A DNA stretch of 64,000 nucleotides from Nitrosomonas sp. (GTDB lineage: Bacteria; Pseudomonadota; Gammaproteobacteria; Burkholderiales; Nitrosomonadaceae): NCBI GenBank assembly GCA_024281995.1, contig JAMWZW010000012.1, positions 1 through 64,000 on the forward strand, given 5' to 3'. Both the position numbers and the translations under genes were made by a program. Of this stretch, positions 39,373-55,117 are shown in pieces. Numbering within the stretch: position 1 is the first letter of the stretch; every line of letters starts with the position of its first letter. The notes beneath the pieces were generated by a model. That model was not told where the DNA came from. It saw nothing but the letters and a program-made list of their open reading frames with translations, and did not search any database.

Positions 39373-40014
39373 TTATTTGATTCCATATTGTGCGCGATAA
39401 CGCTCTACTGCAAATAAACGATGTTCTAACTCAGGATGACCCTGTAGATATTCAACCAAATCATCCAGAGTAATAATCGAAGTCACCGAAATGCCGTGCA
39501 ATTGCTGCACCTCCTGAACAGCCGATAACTGATCAATACCTCGCTCCATGCGATCGAGCGCAATGACTACGCCGATTGGTGCCGCACCTGCAGTCTTAAT
39601 CAAATCGACCGATTCGCGCACCGAGGTACCAGCAGAAATAACATCATCGACAATTAGCACACGGCCTTGCAGCGGCGCGCCGACAAGCATTCCACCTTCG
39701 CCGTGATCCTTTGCCTCCTTGCGATTAAAACAGAAGGGATAGTTATGCTCCATTTCTGCCAAAGCAATAGCAATCGCACTCACCAGCGGAATGCCTTTGT
39801 ACGCGGGGCCAAATAACATATCAAACGGAAGCGCTGCAGCAATGATCGCTTTGGCGTAAAATTGGCCCAGCCTGCGCAATGAATCGCCATCGTTGAACAG
39901 TCCTGCGTTAAAAAAATAAGGTGACAAGCGTCCTGCTTTGGTGATGAACTCGCCAAAGCAAAGTACTTTACGTTCAATAGCAAACTGAATAAATGCCTGC
40001 CGGAAATCTGACAT
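39373..40014 (-). CDS. pyrE: Orotate phosphoribosyltransferase
   Basis: The product of about 213 residues makes orotidine 5'-phosphate from orotate and PRPP in pyrimidine synthesis. The PRPP-binding motif [13 protein letters not shown] is clear, as are [10 protein letters not shown] and [14 protein letters not shown] chose ATG 40014 over an upstream TTG at 40026. The gene is divergent from xthA, with only 22 bases between the start codons. Confidence 0.96.
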
Positions 40015-40036
40015 AACTGTGATCAATCCTTAAAAT

Positions 40037-40810
40037 ATGCAAATTATAACGCTTAACCTCAACGGCATCCGCGCAGCGGCAAAAAAAGGTTTCTTTACCT
40101 GGTTAGCCGCGCAATCGGCTGAAATTGTATGTGTACAAGAGTTAAAAGCCCAGTTGCCCGATTTCTCCGAAGAAATGCGTTCACCGGGCGCATACCGAGG
40201 CTATTTTCATTGTGCCGCACAAAAAGGCTATAGCGGTGTCGGCATATATTGCCGCAAGCAACCCGATAAAATCATTGAAGGTATCGGTGTCCCTGCAATC
40301 GATGCGGAAGGCCGTTTTATTCAGGCAGACTTTGGCAATCTGAGTATTATTTCCATTTATTTGCCTTCCGGATCGAGCGGCGAACACCGTCAAGCCGCAA
40401 AGTTCTTTTTTATGGAACAATTCTTTCCGATGCTGAAAACATTGATAGCTTGTGGCCGCGAGATTATTTTGTGCGGCGACTGGAATATTGCGCATAAGGA
40501 AATCGATTTGAAAAACTGGCGCTCGAACCAAAAAAATTCCGGTTTTCTACCGGAAGAACGCACTTGGTTGTCGAATGTATTCGACAGCATTGGTTTTGTC
40601 GATGTTTTTCGCCGCCTCAATTCCGAGCCTGAGCAATACACCTGGTGGTCCAACCGCGGCCAAGCCTGGGCCAAGAATGTCGGCTGGCGTATCGATTATC
40701 AAATTGCCACACCGGTCATCGCGCAAACTGCGTCTGGCGCATCTATTTATAAAGCTGAGCGCTTCTCAGATCACGCGCCATTGATTATCGACTACGACTA
40801 TACTTTATGA
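40037..40810 (+). CDS. xthA: Exodeoxyribonuclease III
   Basis: The 257-residue enzyme has the ExoIII motifs LNLNGIRAAAKKGF, VCVQELKAQ, LCGDWNIAHKEIDLKNW and SDHAPLIIDY. It acts as AP endonuclease and 3' exonuclease in base-excision repair. The last four bases (ATGA) overlap the start of the permease gene. Its leader is too short for an ordinary ribosome site separate from the pyrE leader. Confidence 0.94.
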   Translation: MQIITLNLNGIRAAAKKGFFTWLAAQSAEIVCVQELKAQLPDFSEEMRSPGAYRGYFHCAAQKGYSGVGIYCRKQPDKIIEGIGVPAIDAEGRFIQADFGNLSIISIYLPSGSSGEHRQAAKFFFMEQFFPMLKTLIACGREIILCGDWNIAHKEIDLKNWRSNQKNSGFLPEERTWLSNVFDSIGFVDVFRRLNSEPEQYTWWSNRGQAWAKNVGWRIDYQIATPVIAQTASGASIYKAERFSDHAPLIIDYDYTL

Positions 40811-42186
40811 AATCCAGCGAATCTTCCGGCTGGTTGCAGGCTTGGCAAGTCTATACGCACCCGCGTGTGCTGGGCATGCTGTCATTGGGATTTTCCGCCG
40901 GATTACCTTTGTTACTGATTTTAGGCACATTGTCGTTTTGGCTGCGCGAAGCGGGCATCGACCGCGCGACCATCGGTCATTTAAGCTGGATTGGTTTAGC
41001 CTATAGTTTCAAGTGGTTATGGTCACCGCTCGTCGATCGTTTGCCACTTCCGTTGCTGACCCGGCTATTAGGACGGCGTCGGGCGTGGCTATTGCTATCG
41101 CAAATAATTATCACGGTTGCACTAGTCGGCATGGCATTGACCGATCCTGTCGTGGATTTAGCAAAATTGGTATTCTTCGCGCTTGCCGTCGCTTTTGCCT
41201 CGGCCACGCAAGATATTGCACTCGATGCTTATCGCATCGAAGCGGTTGCGGTCGAACTGCAGGGTGCCATGGCTGCTACCTATCAGGCAGGATACCGCAT
41301 CGCCATGATTCTGGCGTCGGCAGGCGTATTATGGATTGCTGCGGCAGTCGATCCTTCTGCTGCGGCTTACGAACACTTGCCCTGGCGCTTCGCTTATCTG
41401 GTCATGGCCGCAAGTATGGCTGTCGGTATCATCACCACGCTGATCATCCGCGAACCGGATGTTCCTTACAATCACCTGATCTCCGATAACGAACGCATTG
41501 CACAGCAAGCCCTCGCAACGTGGAATCTCCATCCGCGCTTCAAAAGCCTGCTGGTTTGGCTGTACGGCGCACTAATCGCCCCTTTCAGGGATTTCATTGT
41601 ACGTCATGGACGGCAAGCGTTGCTGATCCTGTCGCTCATCGCAATCTACCGCATCTCCGATGTCGTTATGGGCGTAATGAGCAATCCTTTTTACGTGGAC
41701 ATGGGTTATAGCAAAGATGAAGTTGCCACCATTTCAAAAGTGTATGGCGTTATCATGACAATTGCCGGTGCTGCGATCGGTGGTGTCCTGACGGTAAAAT
41801 TCGGCATCATGCGCACGTTATTTCTTGGCGCCGTATTATCGGCTGCTACCAATTTGCTATTTGTTTGGCTGGCAGGCCGTGGTCATGATGTCAGTGGATT
41901 GATCTTTACCATATCTGCCGACAATCTTTCAGCAGGCATTGCTTCCAGCGCATTTATCGCCTATCTATCCGGTTTAACCAATTCCGCCTATTCGGCTACC
42001 CAATACGCATTATTCAGTTCGGTCATGCTATTGCTGCCTAAATTCATTGCCGGTTTTAGCGGTCAATTTGTCGATGCCTATGGTTATGAAAACTTCTTTA
42101 TCACAACCGCACTACTCGGATTACCCGTTTTAGTATTGGTCTGGCTGGCCGGTCAAGCGAAATTTGCGCTACCTGACAGAAAGTAA
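40807..42186 (+). CDS. AmpG-like major facilitator permease
   Basis: The 459-residue protein has about twelve membrane helices and the AmpG-type start (LGMLSLGFSAGLPLLLILGT, then SYSF-like SFKWLWSPLVDRL). AmpG proteins import anhydro-muropeptides during peptidoglycan recycling. It overlaps xthA by four bases and precedes zapE by 18, so the three probably form one operon. The substrate is inferred from family only. Confidence 0.88.
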   Translation: MKSSESSGWLQAWQVYTHPRVLGMLSLGFSAGLPLLLILGTLSFWLREAGIDRATIGHLSWIGLAYSFKWLWSPLVDRLPLPLLTRLLGRRRAWLLLSQIIITVALVGMALTDPVVDLAKLVFFALAVAFASATQDIALDAYRIEAVAVELQGAMAATYQAGYRIAMILASAGVLWIAAAVDPSAAAYEHLPWRFAYLVMAASMAVGIITTLIIREPDVPYNHLISDNERIAQQALATWNLHPRFKSLLVWLYGALIAPFRDFIVRHGRQALLILSLIAIYRISDVVMGVMSNPFYVDMGYSKDEVATISKVYGVIMTIAGAAIGGVLTVKFGIMRTLFLGAVLSAATNLLFVWLAGRGHDVSGLIFTISADNLSAGIASSAFIAYLSGLTNSAYSATQYALFSSVMLLLPKFIAGFSGQFVDAYGYENFFITTALLGLPVLVLVWLAGQAKFALPDRK

Positions 42187-42204
42187 CCGTGCACATCGTT
42201 AACC

Positions 42205-43407
42205 ATGTCACAATCATTACAAAAAACCGGCCCTGAAAGCGAGTACCAGGTTCTGATACAGGCCGGAGAACTGAAACCGGATACCGATCAGGCGAAAGCG
42301 GTTGCCGCGCTTGAGCGCTTACACCGCGAATTAATCGATTATCCCGTAATAAAAAATATTCATGAGGGTTTTCATTTCAGGTGGCCCGCTGGCTTATTCC
42401 GCTGGCTGAACAGTCGTACATCGACCCCGCAAGGCATCTATCTCTATGGCGGCGTAGGACGCGGCAAGTCGATGCTGATGGATCTGTTTTATACCACTGC
42501 CACCATTGCATCGAAGCGGCGTGTGCATTTCCACGAATTCATGCTGGATATTCATGTCCGACTCAAACAGTGGCATGATTTCTCAAAGCAAGAGCGAGCA
42601 CGGCATGGCGGGCGTAATAGTGATGAGGATCCTATCCCCTCTGTCGCACGGAAAATAGCCAATGAAGCAACGTTACTATGCTTCGATGAACTACACGTCA
42701 CCGATATCGCCGATGCTATGGTGCTAACCCGATTGTTCAAGGAATTGTTTGCGCAAGGCGTAATTGTCGTGGCCACATCCAATCGGCCGCCGGATGATCT
42801 CTATAAGAATGGCTTAAATCGCCAGAGATTTTTGCCTTTTATCGAACAAATCAAGGAAAAACTCGAAATTATTCCACTCGAAGGCCCTGTGGATTACCGC
42901 TATAACCGCTTGAAGGGCGCACAAACCTACTATTTTCCAGTCAATGAAGAGACAACTGCGCAATTAGTGGCAATTTTCTTCCGTCTGACCGATCGCAGTA
43001 TCGCGGATCGCGCCAAAGTCCCCAGCGAAGAATTGACTGTACAAGGCCGCACATTGTTTGTGCCCAAAGCGGCACGCGGCGTCGCCGTATTTTCGTTTAA
43101 GCGCTTATGTGCAAACCCGTTGGGTTCAGCGGATTATTTGACCATCGCCAGAACCTATCACACCGTCATCATGGTCGCAATTCCGCAATTTAATAATGGA
43201 AACAACGATGAAGCCAAACGATTCATCACCTTTATCGATGCCCTCTATGAGCATGGCGTCAAATTCCTTTGCTCAGCCGCTGTGCCGCTGCATTTGCTAT
43301 ATAACGGCGGGGATGTCAGCTTTGAATTTGAGCGCACACGCTCACGATTGATGGAAATGCAATCTGAAGATTATTTGGCCAGAGGTCATGGCAGCAACTT
43401 GCGTTAA
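42205..43407 (+). CDS. zapE: Cell-division ATPase ZapE (AFG1 family)
   Basis: The 400-residue AAA-type ATPase has Walker A GGVGRGKSMLMD, Walker B LLCFDELHVTD, the sensor motif VVATSNRPPDDLYKNGLNR, and ends with FIDALYEHGVKF. ZapE interacts with FtsZ at late division in E. coli. It is the last gene of the xthA-permease-zapE run. Confidence 0.93.
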   Translation: MSQSLQKTGPESEYQVLIQAGELKPDTDQAKAVAALERLHRELIDYPVIKNIHEGFHFRWPAGLFRWLNSRTSTPQGIYLYGGVGRGKSMLMDLFYTTATIASKRRVHFHEFMLDIHVRLKQWHDFSKQERARHGGRNSDEDPIPSVARKIANEATLLCFDELHVTDIADAMVLTRLFKELFAQGVIVVATSNRPPDDLYKNGLNRQRFLPFIEQIKEKLEIIPLEGPVDYRYNRLKGAQTYYFPVNEETTAQLVAIFFRLTDRSIADRAKVPSEELTVQGRTLFVPKAARGVAVFSFKRLCANPLGSADYLTIARTYHTVIMVAIPQFNNGNNDEAKRFITFIDALYEHGVKFLCSAAVPLHLLYNGGDVSFEFERTRSRLMEMQSEDYLARGHGSNLR

Positions 43408-43455
43408 TCAACTCACACCCGGGAATCTGTCAGACTTATCCACTGCTTGCGCTAC

Positions 43456-44310
43456 TCAGGCTGACTTCAGATTCAATGAATTATCCAGGTTGGGAATAAT
43501 GAGCTTCTCAGAGAAAAATAGGGTTTCAACGCTTTTGTAACGATCTCGCGCATTTTGATAGACCAGGAACGGGTAACTTTTATACACTTCCATAGTTTGG
43601 GGAGTATAGTCAAAGGAAGCTATCCAATACTGCGTAATATGCGCCTTGATCAGATGGGCAATGTTCAAATGAGTAGTCTGCAGAACGTGCTTTTCTAAAT
43701 GCCATTGCTTCTCATAGCCGGAATAAAAATCAAGATACATCAGTGTGTTATCGGGCAGTGACGACAATACGGTTTTGATTACGTCTGCCGTTTCTAAATT
43801 ATAAAGACGAATGCTTGAGCGATGCAGTGCAATCCACTCAATCCTGCGTATCAAGTCAATCTTGTTAAAACGTGCATCCGTTCTCCAGTGTCCGCTCTGG
43901 CTTTTTCCGTTATCAGTTACTCCCCACAAGATTCCTGAGGGATTAATTCGAGTTAAGAAAAAGATTGAAAAACCGACTTCAAGTAAGCTGTGATTTTCAG
44001 GAAAATTTAAGATATTGTTTTGTCGCTGCCATTCTTCCCTTGTTATTTTTACATCGTGAATAGCTTTGCAAAGTGCTTCAGGCTGATCGACAACGCTACT
44101 CCAGAAAGCATATACCGCAGGATTTGCATCGTTCAAATGAATGCAGGATACGTAACCGTGAGTAAGTAAATTAAGCGCGATTGCCGCGCCACCTGTGGAT
44201 GACTCAACATAATGCCCGCCTAATAGATTATTTTTCTCAAAAACCATCTTCATGAAGCCCGCTAATTTGTCTCTTCCTCCTTGGTAACGCAAAGGTGTAT
44301 TGAATTTCAT
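43456..44310 (-). CDS. D12-class DNA adenine methylase-like protein, motif IV altered
   Basis: I chose ATG 44310, with GGAG six bases upstream. The protein has RYQGGRDKLAGFMK (family PYxGGK), a glycine-rich motif ESSTGGAAIALNL and NDANPAVYAFW, which define the Dam-like fold. The catalytic DPPY, normally in a YLDPPYY context, reads YLDFYSGYEKQW here, about two residues shorter. Both prolines are lost, so methylation is unlikely. No restriction partner is nearby. It may be a decaying orphan methylase or a DNA-binding derivative. Confidence 0.8.
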   Translation of the reverse strand: MKFNTPLRYQGGRDKLAGFMKMVFEKNNLLGGHYVESSTGGAAIALNLLTHGYVSCIHLNDANPAVYAFWSSVVDQPEALCKAIHDVKITREEWQRQNNILNFPENHSLLEVGFSIFFLTRINPSGILWGVTDNGKSQSGHWRTDARFNKIDLIRRIEWIALHRSSIRLYNLETADVIKTVLSSLPDNTLMYLDFYSGYEKQWHLEKHVLQTTHLNIAHLIKAHITQYWIASFDYTPQTMEVYKSYPFLVYQNARDRYKSVETLFFSEKLIIPNLDNSLNLKSA

Positions 44311-44682
44311 TGAAAACTCCACGATGGTGAATTTGACGCAATACGCGTAATGCGACGATCAAGCAAAATTGAGATTAACTTCTTTACATGATCCATGATA
44401 CGAGGAACCTATACGAAAACCAAGGCATTATTTCAAATATTGGTTATCAGTCTGTATCAACTCTTCAGTTAGAATAATTTCCAACTAAGTTTGTTGCTCA
44501 GCTTTTTGCAGTCCGCAGGATTTAAATTTTCAAATCAATAAAATTATTGCGACTTGACATATTCCTGCAATCGAACTCAAGCAAGCTAATTTTCCATAAT
44601 TTATTCGGTTTATTTCCGAATCCCCGAAGTTTGTTAGGATTATGTTGAAACATCAACACCCGGTTCATGCAGATCTGAAGAA
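44311..44682. other. Gap before the pyruvate-kinase fragment
   Basis: About 370 AT-rich bases with no supportable gene. The minus-strand methylase promoter should lie at the left end. I see no insertion-sequence ends that would explain the damaged genes on both sides. Confidence 0.4.
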
Positions 44683-45090
44683 ATGCATCCATACGCCCGT
44701 TTGCTGCATGAGCTTGTGGAGCTACGCGACGAGCTGTTGGCGCTCGAACACGCATATTACAGTCTATTCATCCTTCACATCTATCCAGCCACTATTGATT
44801 TGATTCATTACTTGGGTTTGAGACGGCGGGATTTTCATCCCCTGCAAGAAAGGTTGGCGGCAGTGGGTCTTTCATCACTAGGCCGGATGGAATCCCATGT
44901 CTTTTCTAATCTCAATGCCATCATCGATTTTCTAAGTTGCGCACTGGGTAAGAAATTACCAGAAGACATATCGCTCCCTCCAGATACGACGGGAATGCCT
45001 CTGCTTGAAAGCCATACCAATCATTTATTCGGCAGACCGCCCACGCATCGCCGGGTACGAATCATGGTCACGATGTCAAGTGAAGTGGCA
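44683..45090 (+). pseudogene. Pyruvate kinase, N-terminal stump
   Basis: The first 135 or so residues match the helical N-terminal extension of large proteobacterial pyruvate-kinase-like proteins (LHELVELRDELLALEHAYYS, LHYLGLRRRDFHPLQERLAA-like, GLSSLGRMESHV) and reach the first barrel strand at RRVRIMVTMSSEVA. Homology then ends abruptly near 45085 and the frame closes at 45171. The whole catalytic barrel is missing. A deletion or rearrangement joined this stump to the parA gene end. Confidence 0.75.
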
Positions 45091-45111
45091 ATTCAGGTTT
45101 CTGATTGCCAT

Positions 45112-45852
45112 TCATTCTATTTTCGATACTTCTTCCCAAAGCTGGCGATAGGCGTGGTTAGCTTGTTTTGATTTGGCAAAAACATCGACTGGCGCTTTGT
45201 GTATACCCATTTTTTCGATGTCTGATGAATAAGGAATAGTCGTTTTCAAAAATATTTTATATCGTGCAGACATCGCACGCATGGTTTCCTTGTGCAGCGA
45301 CTTTTGGTTTTGAACCATAGAAAAGAAAGGAACAATCTTATTTTGTGGATAGTCATTTTCCTTGAAAAAAATCATCAATTGCTCAAAAGTACGTTCTGAA
45401 AGCGTGGTGGGTATGACGGGTACCAGTAGCACATCGGATGCAATAAATATGGACTCGGATAGATGACTAATCGATGGCGGACAATCCAATATCACCAGGT
45501 CATACTCCTTATCAAAACCTTTCAATACGCGCCTCAACCGATTTTTGCGTTTCTTAAAGCCCGCCAGTAATGAATCGAAGTTACGAAAACTCAAATGTGC
45601 CGGGATAACATCCAGATTCTCAAAATCGCTTGCCTTAATGTGTGTAACCAAATTTTCGTAGGCTTTAAAAAAGCGCTTAGCCCATTTTTTTGTGGATGGC
45701 CTAACTCTGAAGTAATAGGATGAAGCACCTTGAGGATCCAGGTCAATGAGTAGTGTTTTTGATCCGGATTTGGCAGCCCAATAAGCAAGATTGACCGACG
45801 TAGCCGTTTTTCCGACCCCACCTTTCATACTGTAAGAAGCGATCACTCTCAT
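45112..45852 (-). CDS. ParA/MinD-family ATPase
   Basis: The 246-residue protein has the deviant Walker A motif MKGGVGKTATS, LLIDLDPQGASS, and Walker B LVILDCPPS. It has no N-terminal DNA-binding domain and no ParB gene beside it, like the cargo-positioning ParA proteins. Its ATG overlaps the stop of the CHAD gene (GGATGA), so the two are translationally coupled. CHAD proteins bind polyphosphate, so polyphosphate granules are the obvious candidate cargo. That link is inference. Confidence 0.9.
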   Translation of the reverse strand: MRVIASYSMKGGVGKTATSVNLAYWAAKSGSKTLLIDLDPQGASSYYFRVRPSTKKWAKRFFKAYENLVTHIKASDFENLDVIPAHLSFRNFDSLLAGFKKRKNRLRRVLKGFDKEYDLVILDCPPSISHLSESIFIASDVLLVPVIPTTLSERTFEQLMIFFKENDYPQNKIVPFFSMVQNQKSLHKETMRAMSARYKIFLKTTIPYSSDIEKMGIHKAPVDVFAKSKQANHAYRQLWEEVSKIE

Positions 45853-47129
45853 CCCAAACCCTTTGTTTTCCTAATCCCAAATACCAAATTAAATTCATTG
45901 GTCATATTTTCTGTAAAAAAATCAGCGATCGCGCTCTCAACTTTCGAGCGCTTCTCTATTTTCTTTTGGTGCAAAATGGCTATCAAGCCACTCAAAGAGT
46001 TGGACATATCAACCAGGGCGTCGTCAACGTAACCGTTTAAGATTCCAATTTGCACACCATAATCATTATAGTCACCCAATATTGTTTGTATTTTTTTAAT
46101 TTCGCCAACTATTTTTACAATACGTTTTTTTGGCAGCAAATCCACAAAAAATTCGATCAAATAACGCAGTTTTTTAAACTCAATACGTAACGCGTGAATG
46201 TTTTGATCGGGTGACTGACAGCTAATCCCCTGGCACATCGCCAGCATTTTATGGTAACGCTTTAATATTAATTTTTTCACAACGCGTGCTATTGATTTTG
46301 ATGCCATAGCAGTTTCAAAAACAGAATTCAGCGAGAATTCCGCAGCACAACTAGCAATAGTGGCTTTGTAATCTTTAGAAGACAAATACCTAGCCACTTT
46401 GTTTTTTTCCTGCTTACGCTGTTTCTCAATTAAGCCATATAACTTATTTAATCCGCTTTCAAAATTTGCTGGGAGCATCGTACGGTAGCTTTCATGAGCC
46501 AATATCAATACATCCAAATCGCGTAACTTGTTTGTTTTACCAGCAATTAGGGATAATTTAGGCTTCAGCGTATCAATCAATGTTGTTGGCAGCGCTTTTT
46601 TTAACAAACTGATTAAAGATCTTAGTTTGCGTACATTCACTCGAAATTGATGCAAAAATTCCGTATCAGTGTCCGCAATGACACCTCTTACATGACGTTC
46701 TGCCTGATCAAGCATCGCAAGTGCTATAGATCGTACCGCCGGTTCCGCTTGCATAGCCACAGTCAAAAGAAGAACCGAGTTGCCTTGTTTCGATTTGAAA
46801 ACTTCAAGATCTTGAGCTTCTAACAAGCACTTCAACCCAAAATCCTTAATTTTTGCCTTAATAAGAGGCTCAAGTATTTGCGCTGCTCTGGTATGAAATT
46901 TTGAATAGCCGCGCAGCGCCCGGAGAGTACAATAACAAGTTGGTTGATCGCCACCCATCGATTGTGTTAGGTGCCCTTTCACGACTATTTTTTGATCGCT
47001 GTCGCGCAGCGAAAAGTCAGTCTCAAGTAATCGTAAGGTTGCGACCGGTAATATTGCACGCAAACCGATTAATTTTTGCAATTTGGCTTTAACTATCACT
47101 TTCCCGAAACTCCCACCAAAATCTGGCAT
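45849..47129 (-). CDS. CHAD-domain protein, C-terminal part of a frameshifted CYTH-CHAD gene
   Basis: The 426-residue frame contains a CHAD domain (EFLHQFRVNVRKLRSLISLL, then HALRIEFKKLRYLIEFFVDL and ILGDYNDYGVQIGIL) with the conserved His and basic residues thought to bind polyphosphate. The first 40 or so residues (LQKLIGLRAILPVATLRLLE) are the usual linker of CYTH-CHAD proteins. The N-terminal half lies in another frame just upstream and overlaps by 41 bases. Joining the two needs a shift of +1 at about 47100. The stop overlaps the parA start. Confidence 0.85.
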   Translation of the reverse strand: MPDFGGSFGKVIVKAKLQKLIGLRAILPVATLRLLETDFSLRDSDQKIVVKGHLTQSMGGDQPTCYCTLRALRGYSKFHTRAAQILEPLIKAKIKDFGLKCLLEAQDLEVFKSKQGNSVLLLTVAMQAEPAVRSIALAMLDQAERHVRGVIADTDTEFLHQFRVNVRKLRSLISLLKKALPTTLIDTLKPKLSLIAGKTNKLRDLDVLILAHESYRTMLPANFESGLNKLYGLIEKQRKQEKNKVARYLSSKDYKATIASCAAEFSLNSVFETAMASKSIARVVKKLILKRYHKMLAMCQGISCQSPDQNIHALRIEFKKLRYLIEFFVDLLPKKRIVKIVGEIKKIQTILGDYNDYGVQIGILNGYVDDALVDMSNSLSGLIAILHQKKIEKRSKVESAIADFFTENMTNEFNLVFGIRKTKGLG

Positions 47130-47373
47130 CGCCTGGTGCGCTCACCGTATCGATACAACCGGAATGGGCGATAAGCTGGAATTTTTGCTTATCCGCATTG
47201 CAAAGCAAATAATTCGCTTGCCAAAGATGCGCGTCAAAATCATCGTAAAATCGCAGTGTAGATGATATGGCTGGCTTGATTTCTATCTCAAACTCGGATG
47301 ACAATCCGGAGAAAATATCGGCGTGCTGGACTGTCTCGCTTAATTCCCAAGTAATGACTGGCAAAGAATTCAT
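47089..47373 (-). CDS. CYTH-like N-terminal part of the CHAD protein
   Basis: The 94-residue frame has FEIEIK, matching the ExExK signature of triphosphate-tunnel enzymes, then TLRFYDDFDAHLWQANYLL and DARFWWEF. In related proteins this region runs directly into the sequence found at the start of the CHAD frame. It ends early because of an apparent one-base insertion near GGGAAAG. Either the gene is damaged, or the two parts are made separately or by frameshifting. Confidence 0.7.
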   Translation of the reverse strand: MNSLPVITWELSETVQHADIFSGLSSEFEIEIKPAISSTLRFYDDFDAHLWQANYLLCNADKQKFQLIAHSGCIDTVSAPGDARFWWEFRESDS

Positions 47374-47496
47374 TGATCGATTTTAATTTGATACCGTCAG
47401 TATGACTGCTATGATCATGCCGCAACTTAACTGAAAAAATATCGCAAATAGTAATAGTGTGCCAGCATTATTTCCAATCACTCCAGAGGACATGAC

Positions 47497-48561
47497 TTGC
47501 AATATCAAAATTCTCAGCACGAATGGTCGATAGAGCTGCTTCGCGGCATAGCAGCACTGATGGTGGTATTTGCGCACTATTATCCGTTAGCGGGTATCGA
47601 GCCTGGTCTGCTGAAATTTTTCTTCTCCGGCGTCGATTTGTTTTTTGTAATCAGTGGATTTGTATTTGCACCTTATCTATTTGGCAAACAATTCGCCGTC
47701 GTGCCTTTTATGATACGCCGCATATTCCGTATTTATCCGCTTTACTTGGCGGCGTTATTCGCTTACATCGCTTTGCATCTTTATCAGAACCTTGCAATCG
47801 AGCATATTGCGGCACATCTGTTTTTTCTGCATACCCTGGAATCAAAAGCAATCGCTTTTTATTACAATCCTGCTTTCTGGAGTTTGCCTCCTGAAGTTGA
47901 ATTTTACCTCTTCCTGCCTTTGTGGCTGCTCATTGTCAATCGAATCCGGCACTATGCCATCATTTTCCCCATCGCACTGATCGCACATTTAGTCATTGCG
48001 TTCTTGTCTCCGGCCAATGCAGGAGAAATTAATTTCTGGGCAATACTGGCCATTCATTTGCCCGGAATGCTCATCGAATTTTTATTAGGAGCAATTGTTT
48101 GGCGAGTCATTACACAATCGAAAAACTTATCCTTGCGCCTAATCCTGTTGTTGATCGGATTTATTTTCTGGATAACCCTTGCACAGATTTTCTCGTCGCG
48201 GGGTGACGGTGTAATCGCTTCCGATCCCATACTCCGCGGCAATATGGGTTTGTTCGCCGCACTGACGTACAGCATAATACTGTGCGGATGGATAGGATTG
48301 ATCAAACAATGTCCCCAGTGGCTTAGGCAGTGTTCTATCATCCTTGGTAATTTGAGTTATGGTATCTATCTGTTTCACAATGCCATGCCCATTGCTCTCC
48401 AAAAATTATCGAGCCACATTTCGGACACCTCCTTCGCAGTAATCTGCTTCGTATGCACCTTGCTGATAGCTACCCTTGCGCATATTGTCGTTGAAGCGCC
48501 TTTACGAAAATTGGGACGGCAGTGGGCTGCAAACATTCAAACCTCTTCAGCTCAAAAATAG
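47497..48561 (+). CDS. Acyltransferase 3 family membrane protein
   Basis: The 354-residue protein has about ten membrane helices and the family signature IELLRGIAALMVVFAHY near the N-terminus, with the conserved His, then FFVISGFVFAP and RRIFRIYPLY. These enzymes O-acetylate or O-acylate surface sugars at the inner membrane. The start is TTG 47497, with GAGGA six bases upstream; a nearby ATG is out of frame. It stands alone between the CYTH-CHAD gene and the DsrE-like gene. Confidence 0.88.
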   Translation: MQYQNSQHEWSIELLRGIAALMVVFAHYYPLAGIEPGLLKFFFSGVDLFFVISGFVFAPYLFGKQFAVVPFMIRRIFRIYPLYLAALFAYIALHLYQNLAIEHIAAHLFFLHTLESKAIAFYYNPAFWSLPPEVEFYLFLPLWLLIVNRIRHYAIIFPIALIAHLVIAFLSPANAGEINFWAILAIHLPGMLIEFLLGAIVWRVITQSKNLSLRLILLLIGFIFWITLAQIFSSRGDGVIASDPILRGNMGLFAALTYSIILCGWIGLIKQCPQWLRQCSIILGNLSYGIYLFHNAMPIALQKLSSHISDTSFAVICFVCTLLIATLAHIVVEAPLRKLGRQWAANIQTSSAQK

Positions 48562-50050: not shown

Positions 50051-51130
50051 CTAAATTCGGCTGCTACGTGCCCCCATACTTGACAGTTTAAATAATACGC
50101 ATTTCGCCATATCCTTCAACGACACAATTTCGTCTACTCCGCCAGCTGCAATCGCTTCTTTTGGCATCCCAAAAACAACACAACTTGCTTCATCCTGTGC
50201 AAAATTGTAGGCACCTGCTTTATGCATTTCTAACATACCCGCTGCACCATCTTTACCCATGCCGGTGAGAATAACACCTACTGCATTCTTACCCGCGCAG
50301 TTAGCTGCTGAACGAAATAGTACATCAACCGAAGGACGATGTCGACTAACCGGTTCTCCTTGATTTAATTCAGTCATGTAATTTGCGCCACTGCGTTTTA
50401 GCAATAAATGCGAATGCCCCGGTGCAATAAAGGCATGGCCTGGTAAAACTCTTTCGCCACCTTTTGCTTCAATTACAGATATTTTACATATACTATTCAA
50501 TCGATTAGCAAATGACTTAGTAAAACCTTCTGGCATGTGCTGAGTCACTAAAATACCTGGAGAATCAGGAGGCATTTGAATCAAAAATTCTTTAATTGCT
50601 TCTGTACCACCAGTTGAAGCACCTACAATTATCAGTTTCTCAGTTGAAGCAACTCGATTGGAAATCGCTGGTAAAACGGCATCTGCTGTTGCACTTTTCA
50701 TTATTGTCATAGGCGCAGAGCGCTTTAGTCTCGCCGACTTTGCAATACGAATTTTATTTGCAATATTTTTACCGTACTCTTTCAATCCCGATGCGATATC
50801 AATTTTAGGCTTAGCTACAAAATCAACTGCACCCAACTCCAGCGCACGAAACGTTATATCCGAACCTTTTTCAGTAAGTGTTGAAACCATGACTACTGGC
50901 ATTGGCCTCAAACGCATTAATTTTTCCAGAAAATCTAATCCATCCATTTTCGGCATCTCAACGTCCAATGTCAGCACATCAGGATTTTTTTCTCGAATCA
51001 TTTCTCGTGCCACTAAAGGATCAGTGGCGGTGCCAATAACTTCCATATCAGGTTGATCATTGATGATCTCAGTTAACAATTTACGAATTAAAGCTGAATC
51101 ATCAACAACTAAGACTGTGATTTTTTTCAT
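50051..51130 (-). CDS. cheB: Chemotaxis methylesterase/deamidase CheB
   Basis: I chose ATG 51130; a TTG at 51142 is an alternative. The receiver domain has LVVDDSALI and phosphoacceptor Asp56 in [12 protein letters not shown]. The effector domain has the catalytic Ser in [10 protein letters not shown], His in TQHMPEGFT and Asp in GMGKDGAAG. CheB removes methyl groups from chemoreceptors when phosphorylated by CheA. It is the last of cheR-cheD-cheB, with 12 bases to cheD. Confidence 0.96.
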
Positions 51131-51142
51131 GATCAAGCTCAA

Positions 51143-51754
51143 TTAAGAAAATAATTCTATCTCACCGCCACTATCAGCTTTTTGTAACTGCTGTTTATAA
51201 TCTTTTTCACGCTGAGAAATAGTTGTGTTATGTACATTACGTAATTTCTTTACCAACACTTTGTTATTTTTGGGAAAAAAATAGACTTTCCGTGGATAAA
51301 TATCTACTAAATCTTGTGCAACAATTCGTATCTTTTCTGTTTGTAGGAACTTCAAAACGAAATCAGCATTTCGTTGCCCTACATTTGCAACTGTCAAGCC
51401 ATCTAACACATTTCCACCACCGAATACTTTTGCTTCTAGATTACACCGGCGGGCTCCCAATTTTAGTAATTGATTAATAAGTATTTCCATTGCATAAGTA
51501 CCATAGCGTGCCGACGCATTTAATGGATTAGCAATATCTCCGCTTCCATCTGGCAGCATGAAATGATTCATGCCCCCAATGCCACTATAACAATCACGTA
51601 TGCAGGCCGAAACACATGAACCTAATACCGTTACAAGCAATATATTTTTGTCTGTTACATAATATTCACCTGGAAGCAATTTAACAGCTTCACTATTAAA
51701 GCTCTTGTCAAAATAAAAGTTGCTCGCAACTTGCTCATCGACAATTTCAGCCAT
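51143..51754 (-). CDS. cheD: Chemoreceptor glutamine deamidase CheD
   Basis: The 203-residue protein has the CheD core LGSCVSACIRD with the catalytic Cys, GGMNHFMLPDG with His, and AKVFGGGNVLDGL. It deamidates receptor glutamines. It is packed between cheR (4 bases) and cheB. Its C-terminal tail, GGEIELFS, resembles the tail of the CheZ-like protein encoded at 55670-56248. Confidence 0.95.
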   Translation of the reverse strand: MAEIVDEQVASNFYFDKSFNSEAVKLLPGEYYVTDKNILLVTVLGSCVSACIRDCYSGIGGMNHFMLPDGSGDIANPLNASARYGTYAMEILINQLLKLGARRCNLEAKVFGGGNVLDGLTVANVGQRNADFVLKFLQTEKIRIVAQDLVDIYPRKVYFFPKNNKVLVKKLRNVHNTTISQREKDYKQQLQKADSGGEIELFS

Positions 51755-51758
51755 ACTG

Positions 51759-52622
51759 TCACCTTTGCTTGTTTGCTAACTCATATACAGTTTTCTCGCG
51801 CAATTTGAATAAATCAGCCGCATGCTGAAAACTCTCAGAGTGGCCCGCAAACAATAGTCCGTCAGGAGCCAACAATGGTACAAATTTATTTAGAATTTTG
51901 TATTGAGTAGGTTTATCAAAATATATCATTACGTTACGGCAAAATATTGCATCAAAAGGACCTCGTACTGGCCAATTCTCATCCAGCAAATTTAGTTGCC
52001 GAAAAGTAATCATATTCCGCAACTCAGGACGGACTCTTGCCGATCCTGCATGATGCCCCTTACCTTTCAAAAAAAATTGCCGGAGTTTGTCCTTTGGTAC
52101 TTTTTCTAACTTATCGAGTGGATAAATTCCCAACTGGGCTTTTGCAAGTACATTCGTATCTAGATCAGTCGCCAAAATATGTACTGGCGGTGTAAATGAC
52201 TTGAACGCCTGCACCATCGCCATTGCCATAGAATAAGGTTCCTCACCAGTAGAAGATGCACTACACCATAGTTGAATTTTTTTTTGATTCTTGCGTTGCT
52301 CGATGTGCTTCTCAAGGATAGGAAAGTGATGTTGCTCACGAAAAAAAGCAGTAAGATTGGTAGTTAGCGCGTTTGTGAATGCTTCTAGTTCATTCGCATC
52401 TCCACTTTCAAGGAAATTTAGATAATCATGGAAGCTATTTAAGCTATTAGCACGTACTCGTCGAGCAAGACGACTGTAAACCATATTTTGTTTACTAGAA
52501 GAAAGCGAAATGCCAGCATGTTTGTAAATCAGCTTCTTAATACGCTCAAAATCAGCTTCAGTAAAAGCATATTCACGTGATTTATTATCATAAATCTTTT
52601 CAAAATCTGAAGCTCTGTCCAT
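51759..52622 (-). CDS. cheR: Chemoreceptor methyltransferase CheR
   Basis: The 287-residue protein has the N-terminal helical domain (IKKLIYKHAGISLSSSKQNM) and the SAM-binding domain (LWCSASSTGEEPYSMAMAM, ILATDLDTNVLAKA, FDAIFCRNVMIYFDKPTQ). It methylates receptor glutamates. It is the first gene of cheR-cheD-cheB and lies 308 bases after cheA. Confidence 0.95.
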   Translation of the reverse strand: MDRASDFEKIYDNKSREYAFTEADFERIKKLIYKHAGISLSSSKQNMVYSRLARRVRANSLNSFHDYLNFLESGDANELEAFTNALTTNLTAFFREQHHFPILEKHIEQRKNQKKIQLWCSASSTGEEPYSMAMAMVQAFKSFTPPVHILATDLDTNVLAKAQLGIYPLDKLEKVPKDKLRQFFLKGKGHHAGSARVRPELRNMITFRQLNLLDENWPVRGPFDAIFCRNVMIYFDKPTQYKILNKFVPLLAPDGLLFAGHSESFQHAADLFKLREKTVYELANKQR

Positions 52623-52930
52623 AATATCGCACTCATTAGAATTAGATAATTTTTTAACACGAAGTTCTATTCAATAATTAATTGAATAGAATAAAATTAT
52701 TATGCTTAAATAAGCATTCTTAGTAAGAATCAAGAACTGCTTTTGTTGAATAAATTTCCTATTTAGGTTTTGGTTTCTACATTAAATGTACACGCTTTTC
52801 TATCTTTTGAATCAAGCAAAATCAGCGACCTACATACAACTGACTCAGTTTCAGTAATTTTGCTATTTCAGGTATGCTGGATTCCGTAACTCAATATAAT
52901 TTTTGCCTATACAAAAAAGGCGAAAATTAA
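52623..52930. other. Gap between cheA and cheR
   Basis: About 308 AT-rich bases. In many betaproteobacteria cheW and a chemoreceptor gene lie at this point; no trace of either is visible here. It presumably holds a promoter for cheR-cheD-cheB. Confidence 0.5.
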
Positions 52931-55117
52931 TTAAACGATCTCTTGCTGAGAGGCTAGTACTAATGCTGCTGCATCAAGTATTAGCGCTACCTTTCCATCG
53001 CCCATAATTGTTGCTCCTGAAACACCCTGCACTCTTCGATAATTACTCTCAAGACTTTTAATAACGACTTGGTGCTGTCCAATCAAATCATCCACAAATA
53101 ATGCAGCTTTATGACCTTCAGCTTCCAAAATAACAAGAATTCCTTCATTAACAGCGGTCACATTTGAACGTAAATTAAAGATTTCATGCAAGGCAATTAC
53201 CGGCAAATACTCCCCGCGAACCTGTACAACACGACCTCGACCACTTACACTCTTTACATCGGAAATACTGGGTTGTAATGATTCGGTAATATAATTAAGT
53301 GGCACTATGAACATTTGATTACCAACAGCAACTGACAATCCATCAAGGATAGCGAGTGTTAATGGCAAACGAATAGAAATACGCGTCTCAACCCCAAATT
53401 TTGATTCGATATCAATACGTCCGCCGATACTTTGGATATTACGTTTTACTACATCCATTCCAACACCTCGCCCAGAGACATCTGTGATTGCCTCTGCTGT
53501 GGAAAAACCTGCTTCAAATATCAGTAACCAAACTTCCTGATCTGTCATGCCATCATGTACTGACAAACCACGTTCCTTGGCTTTTTCAAGAATCTTGTCT
53601 CGATTTAAACCGGCACCATCATCGCTGACTTCGATAACAATGCTACCCCCTTGATGAAATGCGCGTAAAGTGATCGTACCCTGTGTTGGCTTACCCGCTG
53701 CAATTCTTTTCTCAGGCATTTCTATACCATGATCCAAGCTATTTCTTACTAAATGTGTTAAGGGATCAGCAATTTTCTCAATTAATCCTTTGTCTAATTC
53801 CGTATTCTCACCAACCGTTTTAAGTTCAACACGCTTATTTAATTTTGACGCCAAATCACGTACAACTCGTGGATATCGACTAAATACAAAACTTATCGGC
53901 ATCATTCGAATCGACATAACGGATTCCTGCAAATCTCGAGTATTCCTTTCTAATTGATTCATTCCACTATGAAGTTTCTCAAAAACTACCGGATCAAATT
54001 GTGAAGCTGTCTGAGCAAGCATCGCTTGAGTAATCACTAGCTCACCAACCAAATTAATCATTTGATCAACTTTCTCAATACTTACTCGTATTGATGAAGC
54101 TTCACCTGAAGTAGAAACGACATTAGTTTTACTTGAAGATTTATTGGATGCAATTTGCTCTTCACGATTATTATTACTAATCTTTTGTAGTTGCAAATTC
54201 TCATTGATTTCGTGATCGCCCATTTCTTTCGGCGCTGCTGGAGCTTCAGGAAAAAAACCGTAGTCCGGAGTAGTTACTATCTTAGGAATCCTTGTTCCAT
54301 CTTGATCAATCAAAAATTTCTCATCAGTATTAATTGCATCTAGAGTCTTATCTTCTATCTTCGGAATACTGGTACTATCAGAAGAAATTTCTTCAATCGT
54401 TAGCTTTGCGGGATCGACTACGAAAGCCAATGTTTCCCAAACATCCTCTTCGCAATTACTCGTAACGAGTTTCAGTCTACATATTTCTTTCTCATTCTTT
54501 AGTGTATTAACCTCCAAAACTCCCAATTGCTTCAAATTGGCAAATAAATTTTGTATTGCTGTATCACTCATTCCATAATCAGAAAACTCTATACTGTATG
54601 TATGGGAAGGCTTCAATGAATCGACAGACTCTAATGGAGGAGTATTGTTTGTATCATTCACTTTTTTCTGCGAAATGACGTTTGTTTCAGTATGGCTGAC
54701 AACCTTAATCGCCTGAGTTGATACTTGAGTATCATCACTTAAACGCTTAAGTTCTTCACAAATCGCCGTTGCCGTTGCTGGATCAGCCTGACCTTCTCCA
54801 CGATGTGCTGCTAACTGCTCTTTAATTACATCACCAGCTTTTAAAAAAGCATCAATCATCTCAATTCGTACTTCCAGTTCTCCTTTGCGCAACTTATCTA
54901 ATAATGTTTCCAACATGTGCGTAGTCTCCGTCATATCTGTAAAACCAAATGTACCTGCTCCGCCTTTAATAGAATGTGCTGCCCGAAATATGGCATTTAA
55001 ATCTTCTAAGTCTGGTGAATTCACATCAAGCCTTAGCAAACATGCCTCCATATCTGCCAATAGTTCCGAAGATTCTTCAAAAAAAATCTCATAAAATTGT
55101 TCAAGATCAGCACTCAT
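52931..55117 (-). CDS. cheA: Chemotaxis histidine kinase CheA
   Basis: The 728-residue protein has all CheA parts. P1 carries phosphorylated His48 in AHSIKGGAGTFGF. A P2-like region lies at about 170-250. P3 dimerises (VEKVDQMINLVGELVITQAM), P4 is the ATPase (HLVRNSLDHGIE, VSDDGAGL, GRGVGMDVVKRN), and P5 is CheW-like. It should phosphorylate CheY and CheB under control of receptors. It lies 119 bases after cheY. Confidence 0.96.
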   Translation of the reverse strand: MSADLEQFYEIFFEESSELLADMEACLLRLDVNSPDLEDLNAIFRAAHSIKGGAGTFGFTDMTETTHMLETLLDKLRKGELEVRIEMIDAFLKAGDVIKEQLAAHRGEGQADPATATAICEELKRLSDDTQVSTQAIKVVSHTETNVISQKKVNDTNNTPPLESVDSLKPSHTYSIEFSDYGMSDTAIQNLFANLKQLGVLEVNTLKNEKEICRLKLVTSNCEEDVWETLAFVVDPAKLTIEEISSDSTSIPKIEDKTLDAINTDEKFLIDQDGTRIPKIVTTPDYGFFPEAPAAPKEMGDHEINENLQLQKISNNNREEQIASNKSSSKTNVVSTSGEASSIRVSIEKVDQMINLVGELVITQAMLAQTASQFDPVVFEKLHSGMNQLERNTRDLQESVMSIRMMPISFVFSRYPRVVRDLASKLNKRVELKTVGENTELDKGLIEKIADPLTHLVRNSLDHGIEMPEKRIAAGKPTQGTITLRAFHQGGSIVIEVSDDGAGLNRDKILEKAKERGLSVHDGMTDQEVWLLIFEAGFSTAEAITDVSGRGVGMDVVKRNIQSIGGRIDIESKFGVETRISIRLPLTLAILDGLSVAVGNQMFIVPLNYITESLQPSISDVKSVSGRGRVVQVRGEYLPVIALHEIFNLRSNVTAVNEGILVILEAEGHKAALFVDDLIGQHQVVIKSLESNYRRVQGVSGATIMGDGKVALILDAAALVLASQQEIV

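Follow-up and report, generated by a model that had tools for sequence, protein, structure and literature searches.

A ParA-type ATPase gene and the CHAD-domain gene directly upstream of it probably form a module that distributes polyphosphate granules, with the CHAD protein acting as cargo adaptor. The pair lies in a 64,000-nucleotide stretch of a Nitrosomonas sp. genome (assembly GCA_024281995.1, contig JAMWZW010000012.1, positions 1 to 64,000; hereafter the window). This function is suggested because the pair recurs in distant bacteria and in archaea, in several cases beside enzymes that make or break polyphosphate. Its observed basis comprises the conservation of the CHAD-parA pair in multiple phyla and in both bacteria and archaea, recurrent clustering with phosphate genes, ATPase motifs, purifying selection and conserved polyphosphate-binding residues. 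The link of the pair to polyphosphate is strong; beyond it, we infer that ParA may bind DNA, contact the CHAD protein directly and position or segregate granules on which the CHAD protein would be located. More broadly, we think it rather likely that ATP-driven partitioning of polyphosphate granules occurs in several bacterial phyla and in archaea, with a CHAD phosin as the equivalent of ParB or McdB and a motor gene that is often found with PPK or other phosphate-chemistry genes.

The original prediction had proposed looking for a conserved parA-CHAD adjacency across genomes. Searches were made with ParA alone, and the loci were then checked for a CHAD gene directly upstream on the same strand. 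Among 84,980 species genomes, a close-relative search yielded 32 ParA loci, 16 of which have this arrangement. These come from Nitrosomonas and near kin (L025-L029), Malonomonas, Zooshikella, a Desulfobulbaceae, Pontiella, two gammaproteobacterial metagenome-assembled genomes (MAGs), Motiliproteus, Paracoccus, a MAG titled Deltaproteobacteria, an Ignavibacteria MAG and the archaeon Candidatus Argoarchaeum; the remaining 16 are L030, 14 Bacteroidota ParAs (44-50% identity) and a fragment, L056. Within the family to which the organism belongs, ParA was found in 5 of 61 genomes, and all six matches are CHAD-linked. Four further samples, each containing a centre genome already found in the close-relative search, gave linkage in 9 of 11 matches (247 genomes; 8 of 10 without the centre genome), in 24 of 30 loci examined from 69 matches (296 genomes; 23 of 29), in 3 of 3 (196 genomes of an archaeal phylum; 2 of 2) and in 10 of 11 (194 genomes; 9 of 10), and three of five additional loci picked from the 69 matches were also linked. 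In two linked loci, L103 and L135, CHAD is cut by the contig end. The pair thus recurs far beyond close relatives, against the refuting condition that the original prediction had set, in loci labelled Pseudomonadota, Thermodesulfobacteriota, Myxococcota, Kiritimatiellota and Ignavibacteriota and, in the archaea, Methanobacteriota. Chance adjacency was rejected, since CHAD was found directly upstream in several phyla by searches that used only ParA. No CHAD-ParA gene fusion lies behind the long open frames found in G734 and G887, and that reading was rejected as well. As in cargo-positioning systems of the McdAB kind, an ATPase gene is linked here to the gene of a putative cargo-associated partner.

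Gene content was compared in 33 stretches, each 6-18 kb long; all but L145, which is without CHAD, are CHAD-ParA loci. Of these 32, 15 were hand-picked from the genome samples and five are from Nitrosomonas; the set omits the near-copies L025-L027, L049 (the same place as L144) and short loci. PPK1 occurs in seven of the 32 (L033, L039, L141, L142, L143, L144 and L155), PPK2 in four and Ppx/GppA or Ppx-domain-III proteins in four, so that eight carry at least one polyphosphate enzyme gene (PPK1, PPK2 or Ppx-type). NUDIX genes are present in 12, CYTH in eight and SixA-like in four, families that we counted as phosphate chemistry with no implication of polyphosphate activity here; passages of one paper name Ddp1-type Nudix enzymes as polyphosphatases (PMC6537752). 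Altogether, 23 of the 32 loci have a polyphosphate enzyme gene or a NUDIX, CYTH or SixA-like gene. Representatives of these matches were confirmed with Pfam, and the same queries, drawn from the linked loci and from L011, match nothing in 18 CHAD-free ParA loci (183,063 bases).

The order of the genes is PPK1-CHAD-ParA-HD/Ppx III-Ppx/GppA in L049/L144, PPK1-CHAD-ParA-Ppx-type in three archaeal loci and PPK1-CHAD-ParA-SixA-like in L039, and L142 ends with a metallophosphatase-Ppx III protein; some clusters combine genes for polyphosphate synthesis and breakdown. Relatives of the ParA are also found on plasmids (11 records). Both Paracoccus plasmids examined have the order CHAD-ParA-CYTH-NUDIX, and that of Paracoccus marcusii carries pstA-pstB-phoU-phoB near CHAD-ParA-CYTH-NUDIX-CYTH. 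Genome-wide, PPK1 was found in 18 of 20 CHAD-ParA genomes, the exceptions being the window genome (G000) and G462; G047, a relative of the window genome, and G055 do have it.

A quick tree of 97 ParAs (53 CHAD-linked, 44 unlinked) requires 7 changes of this label, compared with a mean of 32.1 after shuffling, and none of 500 shuffles was as low. Here L038 and L094 were set to linked by hand, their ParA open reading frame (ORF) having been called too long, and the tree left out L062, L048, L051, L055, near-copies, 17 of the 30 loci of the 296-genome sample and matches without a locus. Some early branches are CHAD-linked too, which is compatible with an ancestral link lost in some lineages and with repeated origins. 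For 50 pairs, the correlation between CHAD and ParA distances is 0.53, against at most 0.18 in 500 permutations; common species history may account for part of this figure. In six genomes of the 296-genome sample parA is detached, and all six keep the ParA-linked CHAD subfamily elsewhere, with PPK1 adjoining it in five; in G808 and G859, which are not part of the 18-locus control set, the distance between PPK1 and the detached parA is 6-10 kb. Of nine other genomes with an unlinked ParA, only G271 matches the CHAD subfamily, and then in the CHAD part alone (G820 served as positive control).

The polyphosphate link is carried further by the CHAD protein itself. The Pfam CHAD match of the window ORF has an E-value of 2.4e-46, and a profile of ParA-linked CHADs matches the structures 6QV7/6QVA (4.9e-99) and 3E0S (3.5e-99), the sole other chain scoring 2.2e-33. 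A run of 310 residues of 6QV7 is found verbatim in an ORF of locus L114 in G820, a genome that must be Chlorobium tepidum; the residue numbers of this 522-aa protein fit those of CtCHAD, the polyphosphate-binding protein of that species. Its gene immediately precedes that of ParA, with a single gene between it and PPK1 (PPK1-X-CHAD-ParA). Mutation of H253, R256, R260, R296 or R418/Y419 lowers polyphosphate binding by CtCHAD, according to passages of PMC6537752. All six residues are kept in the window CHAD, and in 49 or 50 of 50 linked CHADs (one row does not have the stretch that holds four of them); R438, R385 and K389 vary among linked CHADs and are not kept in the window. By homology to CtCHAD, for which binding itself is published, the ParA-linked CHAD is thus a well-supported candidate polyphosphate binder. 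Some green sulfur bacteria are described, in part of one source, as having up to three polyphosphate granules per cell (PMC11269200).

The N-terminal ~200 residues of linked CHADs are perhaps a divergent CYTH domain. The N-domain alone aligns to a CYTH profile with a probability of 0.2% (hhalign), while a full-length alignment to a CYTH-CHAD protein runs into the N-domain. Pfam gave no CYTH match in the five sequences scanned (both window CHAD ORFs and the full-length proteins of L025, L031 and L049). The CYTH motif, ExExK, is present in one of 32 linked CHADs, that of L025, a near-identical relative of the window; the window's 94-aa N-terminal ORF carries it too, so loss of catalysis cannot be claimed for this organism. 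A structure prediction of the CHAD protein from its single sequence was unusable (predicted local distance difference test score, pLDDT, 36).

The ParA of the window matches AAA_31 (3.8e-37, Pfam) and has a deviant Walker A, KGGVGKT, at residue 10, DLDPQG at 37 and DCPP at 123, so that the signature lysine, Walker A' and Walker B of ParA-type ATPases are all present. Residues K10, G11, G12, G14, K15, T16, D37, D39, D123, P125 and P126 are invariant across 15 aligned rows. As the original prediction had stated, the protein has no N-terminal DNA-binding domain, because it begins directly at the P-loop. The predicted model (pLDDT 85.4; predicted template-modelling score 0.87) has a ParA/MinD fold, its ten best Foldseek matches all being Soj/ParA (template-modelling scores 0.79-0.83), and profile comparison gave 2.8e-27 for Soj and 5.1e-13 for McdA. 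BcsQ, too, is related in sequence and fold, and ranks behind Soj/ParA. The nearest NCBIfam model is a ParA partition family, but at 87 bits with a cut-off of 180; the PHROGs label is ParA-like partition protein (1.3e-51). The parA gene is under purifying selection, with ratios of non-synonymous to synonymous substitution (dN/dS) of 0.05-0.10 over the seven pairs tested and 0.085 between the two copies of the window genome, a constraint that makes the CHAD-ParA observation more than chance. The protein may bind DNA nonspecifically in an ATP-dependent manner.

No parB was found beside this gene, again in agreement with the original prediction: Pfam scans found no ParB in the four neighbouring ORFs (47089-47373, 47497-48558, 43459-44322 and 44683-45168), and the CHAD ORF matched a ParB CE domain once, weakly and below threshold (E 0.024; 15 bits against a cut-off of 23). 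A ParB with all three ParB domains instead adjoins another ParA of the window genome, on contig C3 (L012). Of the four other ParA-type matches in the genome, the three compared (all but L009) occur with ParB, with MinC/MinE and beside an FlhF-like GTPase, respectively. Phage records returned only distant ParAs (28-31% identity among the ten matches listed), and promoter and terminator scans of the region gave no enrichment over shuffles.

Table 1. Location of the CHAD-ParA features within the window (positions count from its first nucleotide).
Feature	Position	Strand	Basis
parA, ParA-type ATPase, 246 aa, no N-terminal helix-turn-helix	45112..45852	minus	Pfam, predicted fold, Foldseek
CHAD ORF, 426 aa; residues 136-364 form the CHAD domain, with the remainder of the N-terminal domain ahead of it	45849..47129	minus	Pfam
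94-aa ORF encoding, in a shifted frame, the N-terminal part of that CHAD protein	47089..47373	minus	Comparison with relatives
ATGA, 4-base overlap of CHAD stop and parA start, within GGATGA	45849..45852	minus	

The overlap of the parA start with the CHAD stop, noted from the outset, was found as described, with ATGA shared by both genes, and suggests that the two may be translationally coupled; several relatives from the close search have an identical 4-base overlap, and others a short gap or a different overlap. What had gone unnoticed is the second ORF at the far end of the region. Relative to L021, L026 and L010, the CHAD gene of the window is split by a 1-bp insertion, and L021/L025 (genome G047) and L026 encode one unbroken CHAD protein of 507 aa. 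This break may be an assembly error, because the corresponding stretch of G047 (L021), 99.5% identical to the window across 16 kb, is intact. A second CHAD-ParA copy, with a 95% identical ParA, lies on contig C11 of the window genome (L010), and its CHAD gene is damaged at a different place by a 152-bp deletion. The parA gene is undamaged in either copy, and the part encoding the CHAD domain still reads open in this genome; dN/dS of the CHAD domain is 0.13-0.33 overall. A third CHAD of the genome (L011, 6444-8858) is a CYTH-CHAD protein (Pfam CYTH) whose gene directly adjoins a PPK2 gene.

The second copy belongs to a segmental duplication, in which 39886-48539 of the window corresponds to L010 in pieces 85-92% identical that include the CHAD-ParA pair and its flanks. 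In those flanks, a 162-aa ORF (44683-45171) groups with a pyruvate kinase-like protein of 624 aa, of which L010 and L029 have an intact copy near parA; a pyruvate kinase gene also stands beside a ParA relative on the Marinobacter plasmid pMAQU02, near phbB. Among the Bacteroidota loci, a 243-aa gene, esterase-like by eye, directly follows parA in L041, L042, L045, L046, L048 and L052, none of which has a CHAD. In L047 (4657-5753), a Paludibacter ParA is preceded, with a 4-base overlap, by a 115-aa highly charged ORF, possibly a different partner for a related ParA.

ParA-type ATPases are used by bacteria to spread cargo along DNA. In the mechanism that we propose, the CHAD protein would coat polyphosphate granules via its CHAD domain and ParA, as an ATP dimer, would bind the nucleoid nonspecifically. 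Granule-bound CHAD would then stimulate the ATPase and release ParA, so that granules would follow the ParA gradient, spread along the nucleoid and reach both daughter cells, much as carboxysomes do under McdA/McdB. Our guess is that the ParA-contact region would be the N-terminal ~200 residues of the linked CHADs.

Several observations weigh against a granule-distribution module. Many partners of ParA/MinD ATPases have a positively charged N-terminal peptide, according to part of PMC12204374, and a basic N-terminus (net charge of at least +3 over residues 1-20) was found in only 3 of 32 linked CHADs, so that nearly all of them are without this feature of a partner. The original prediction of such a module is partly supported, its link to polyphosphate being well supported and granule positioning a putative role. 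The association is also patchy. Bacteroidota ParAs are CHAD-free in the 13 loci whose upstream side is visible (L055 is uninformative because its contig starts at ParA), and so are L030, whose ParA is 75% identical, and L178 and L179 of the 296-genome sample. Just 5 of 22 genomes of the genus carry the ParA. In a sample of 398 genomes from the organism's own phylum, CHAD lies beside only 8 of 74 ParA matches at E<=1e-40, namely six matches above 330 bits and two lower ones; the others fall in different groups within this ParA family, and by eye several adjoin truA-like genes. L010, L021, seven other CHAD-ParA loci and the window, with gene content as in L021, have no phosphate-chemistry neighbours. 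PPK1 was not found with two profiles in the window genome assembly, rated 97.6% complete, and the breaks in its two ParA-linked CHAD genes lie upstream of the CHAD domain. The Acidithiobacillus papers, in the parts available, call parA a plasmid or chromosome partition gene and offer no positioning idea (PMC10892726, PMC6416229).

The breaks in CHAD raise the possibility, doubtful but compatible with a granule-distribution module in general, that the window copy is a decaying duplicate with a defunct CHAD and that the module is failing in this strain. Two copies with a broken CHAD gene in each, and the failure to find PPK1, are in keeping with such decay, but both parA copies are intact and constrained relative to one another, the CHAD domain part is open (dN/dS 0.33) and the window break may be an assembly artefact given the intact relative. 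A different function for the ATPase is unlikely, if less so than the remaining alternatives: ParA could be, rather than a positioner, a polyphosphate-linked regulatory switch that acts through CHAD on the activity of PPK or of exopolyphosphatase, or on the growth of granules, in the way that BcsQ or NifH-like ATPases serve other machines. Synthesis and breakdown genes do occur together in some clusters, BcsQ is a relative by sequence and fold, and the CHAD partners are without the usual basic peptide; the nearest neighbours on both counts are nevertheless Soj/ParA segregation ATPases, ahead of BcsQ.

We consider it very improbable that a stray parA of the plasmid- or chromosome-partition kind, the naming used in print for Acidithiobacillus, came to lie beside CHAD here by accident. 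The NCBIfam and PHROGs assignments and the plasmid records are what such a gene would give, although the NCBIfam score is less than half its cut-off; yet no ParB was found in the scanned neighbours, a ParA-ParB pair exists elsewhere in the genome, the recurrence of CHAD across phyla already argues against chance, and both examined Paracoccus plasmids place the gene in a CHAD-ParA-CYTH-NUDIX cluster. We give least credence of all to a ParC-like role in positioning chemoreceptor arrays. A che cluster does start 2.7 kb upstream of the CHAD gene, with cheB-, cheD-, cheR- and cheA-like ORFs at 50051-55117 on the parA strand (cheA by Pfam, the others by eye), but an acyltransferase gene on the opposite strand intervenes, cheD/R/A-type neighbours are common only to the window and L021 among 26 stretches compared, and none of them is shared with the other Nitrosomonas stretches compared (L022, L028 and L029) or with the second copy, L010.

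A granule-distribution module would bear on a question raised in a 2025 review, which, in the passages seen, leaves open the placement and inheritance of polyphosphate granules and whether these processes consume energy; its table gives AlgP as the sole polyphosphate positioner and marks ATP dependence as unknown (PMC13052382). The present analysis names a candidate motor and a candidate adaptor for both placement and inheritance. The gene-order link to PPK1 in several lineages, together with a CHAD whose polyphosphate complex has been solved, makes the question directly testable. If the proposal is true, granules of an inorganic polymer would join the cargos of ParA/MinD ATPases in bacteria and some archaea, and an inorganic storage body would have a dedicated positioning machine. 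In the portions of the literature covered, which exclude subscription papers, bioRxiv and other preprint servers, parA beside CHAD appears in print only in PMC10892726 and PMC6416229, and no other paper was found that ties ParA to polyphosphate. Passages of PMC9239181, PMC13052382, PMC6537752, PMC11271474, PMC11604172, PMC10483234 and PMC11326607 contain no parA beside CHAD, and a term search of the main text of a survey covering multiple ParA/MinD systems gave no mention of polyphosphate or of CHAD (PMC10241942).

Compared with known systems, the pair differs from ParABS DNA partition in having no adjacent parB among its scanned neighbours, and from ParC/ParP chemoreceptor positioning in having no conserved link to che genes. 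YgiF-type CYTH-CHAD proteins share a C-terminal CHAD, and the third CHAD of the window genome, beside PPK2, is of this type; the ParA-linked CHADs differ from it in the Pfam and ExExK results given above. CtCHAD belongs to the same CHAD subfamily, and its gene adjoins ParA near PPK1; the published work concerns polyphosphate binding, and a whole-word literature query for ParA, CHAD domain and polyphosphate does not return it. The folD-ppk-parA-CHAD cluster of Acidithiobacillus, called highly conserved in the genus in the passages available (PMC10892726, PMC6416229), has the same kind of gene content, including ppk, a likeness drawn from published gene content. AlgP of Pseudomonas aeruginosa, as described in parts of PMC13052382 and PMC9239181, likewise spaces polyphosphate granules with the nucleoid as scaffold; it is a histone H1-like protein with no ATPase known. 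From the McdA/McdB system of carboxysome positioning the pair differs in that its partner is a CHAD protein predicted to bind an inorganic polymer, in that the basic N-terminal peptide was not found on CHAD, and in that its ParA is nearer in sequence to Soj than to McdA; it resembles that system, as portrayed in parts of PMC13052382 and PMC12204374, in combining a ParA-type ATPase with a partner that would bridge it to an intracellular body.

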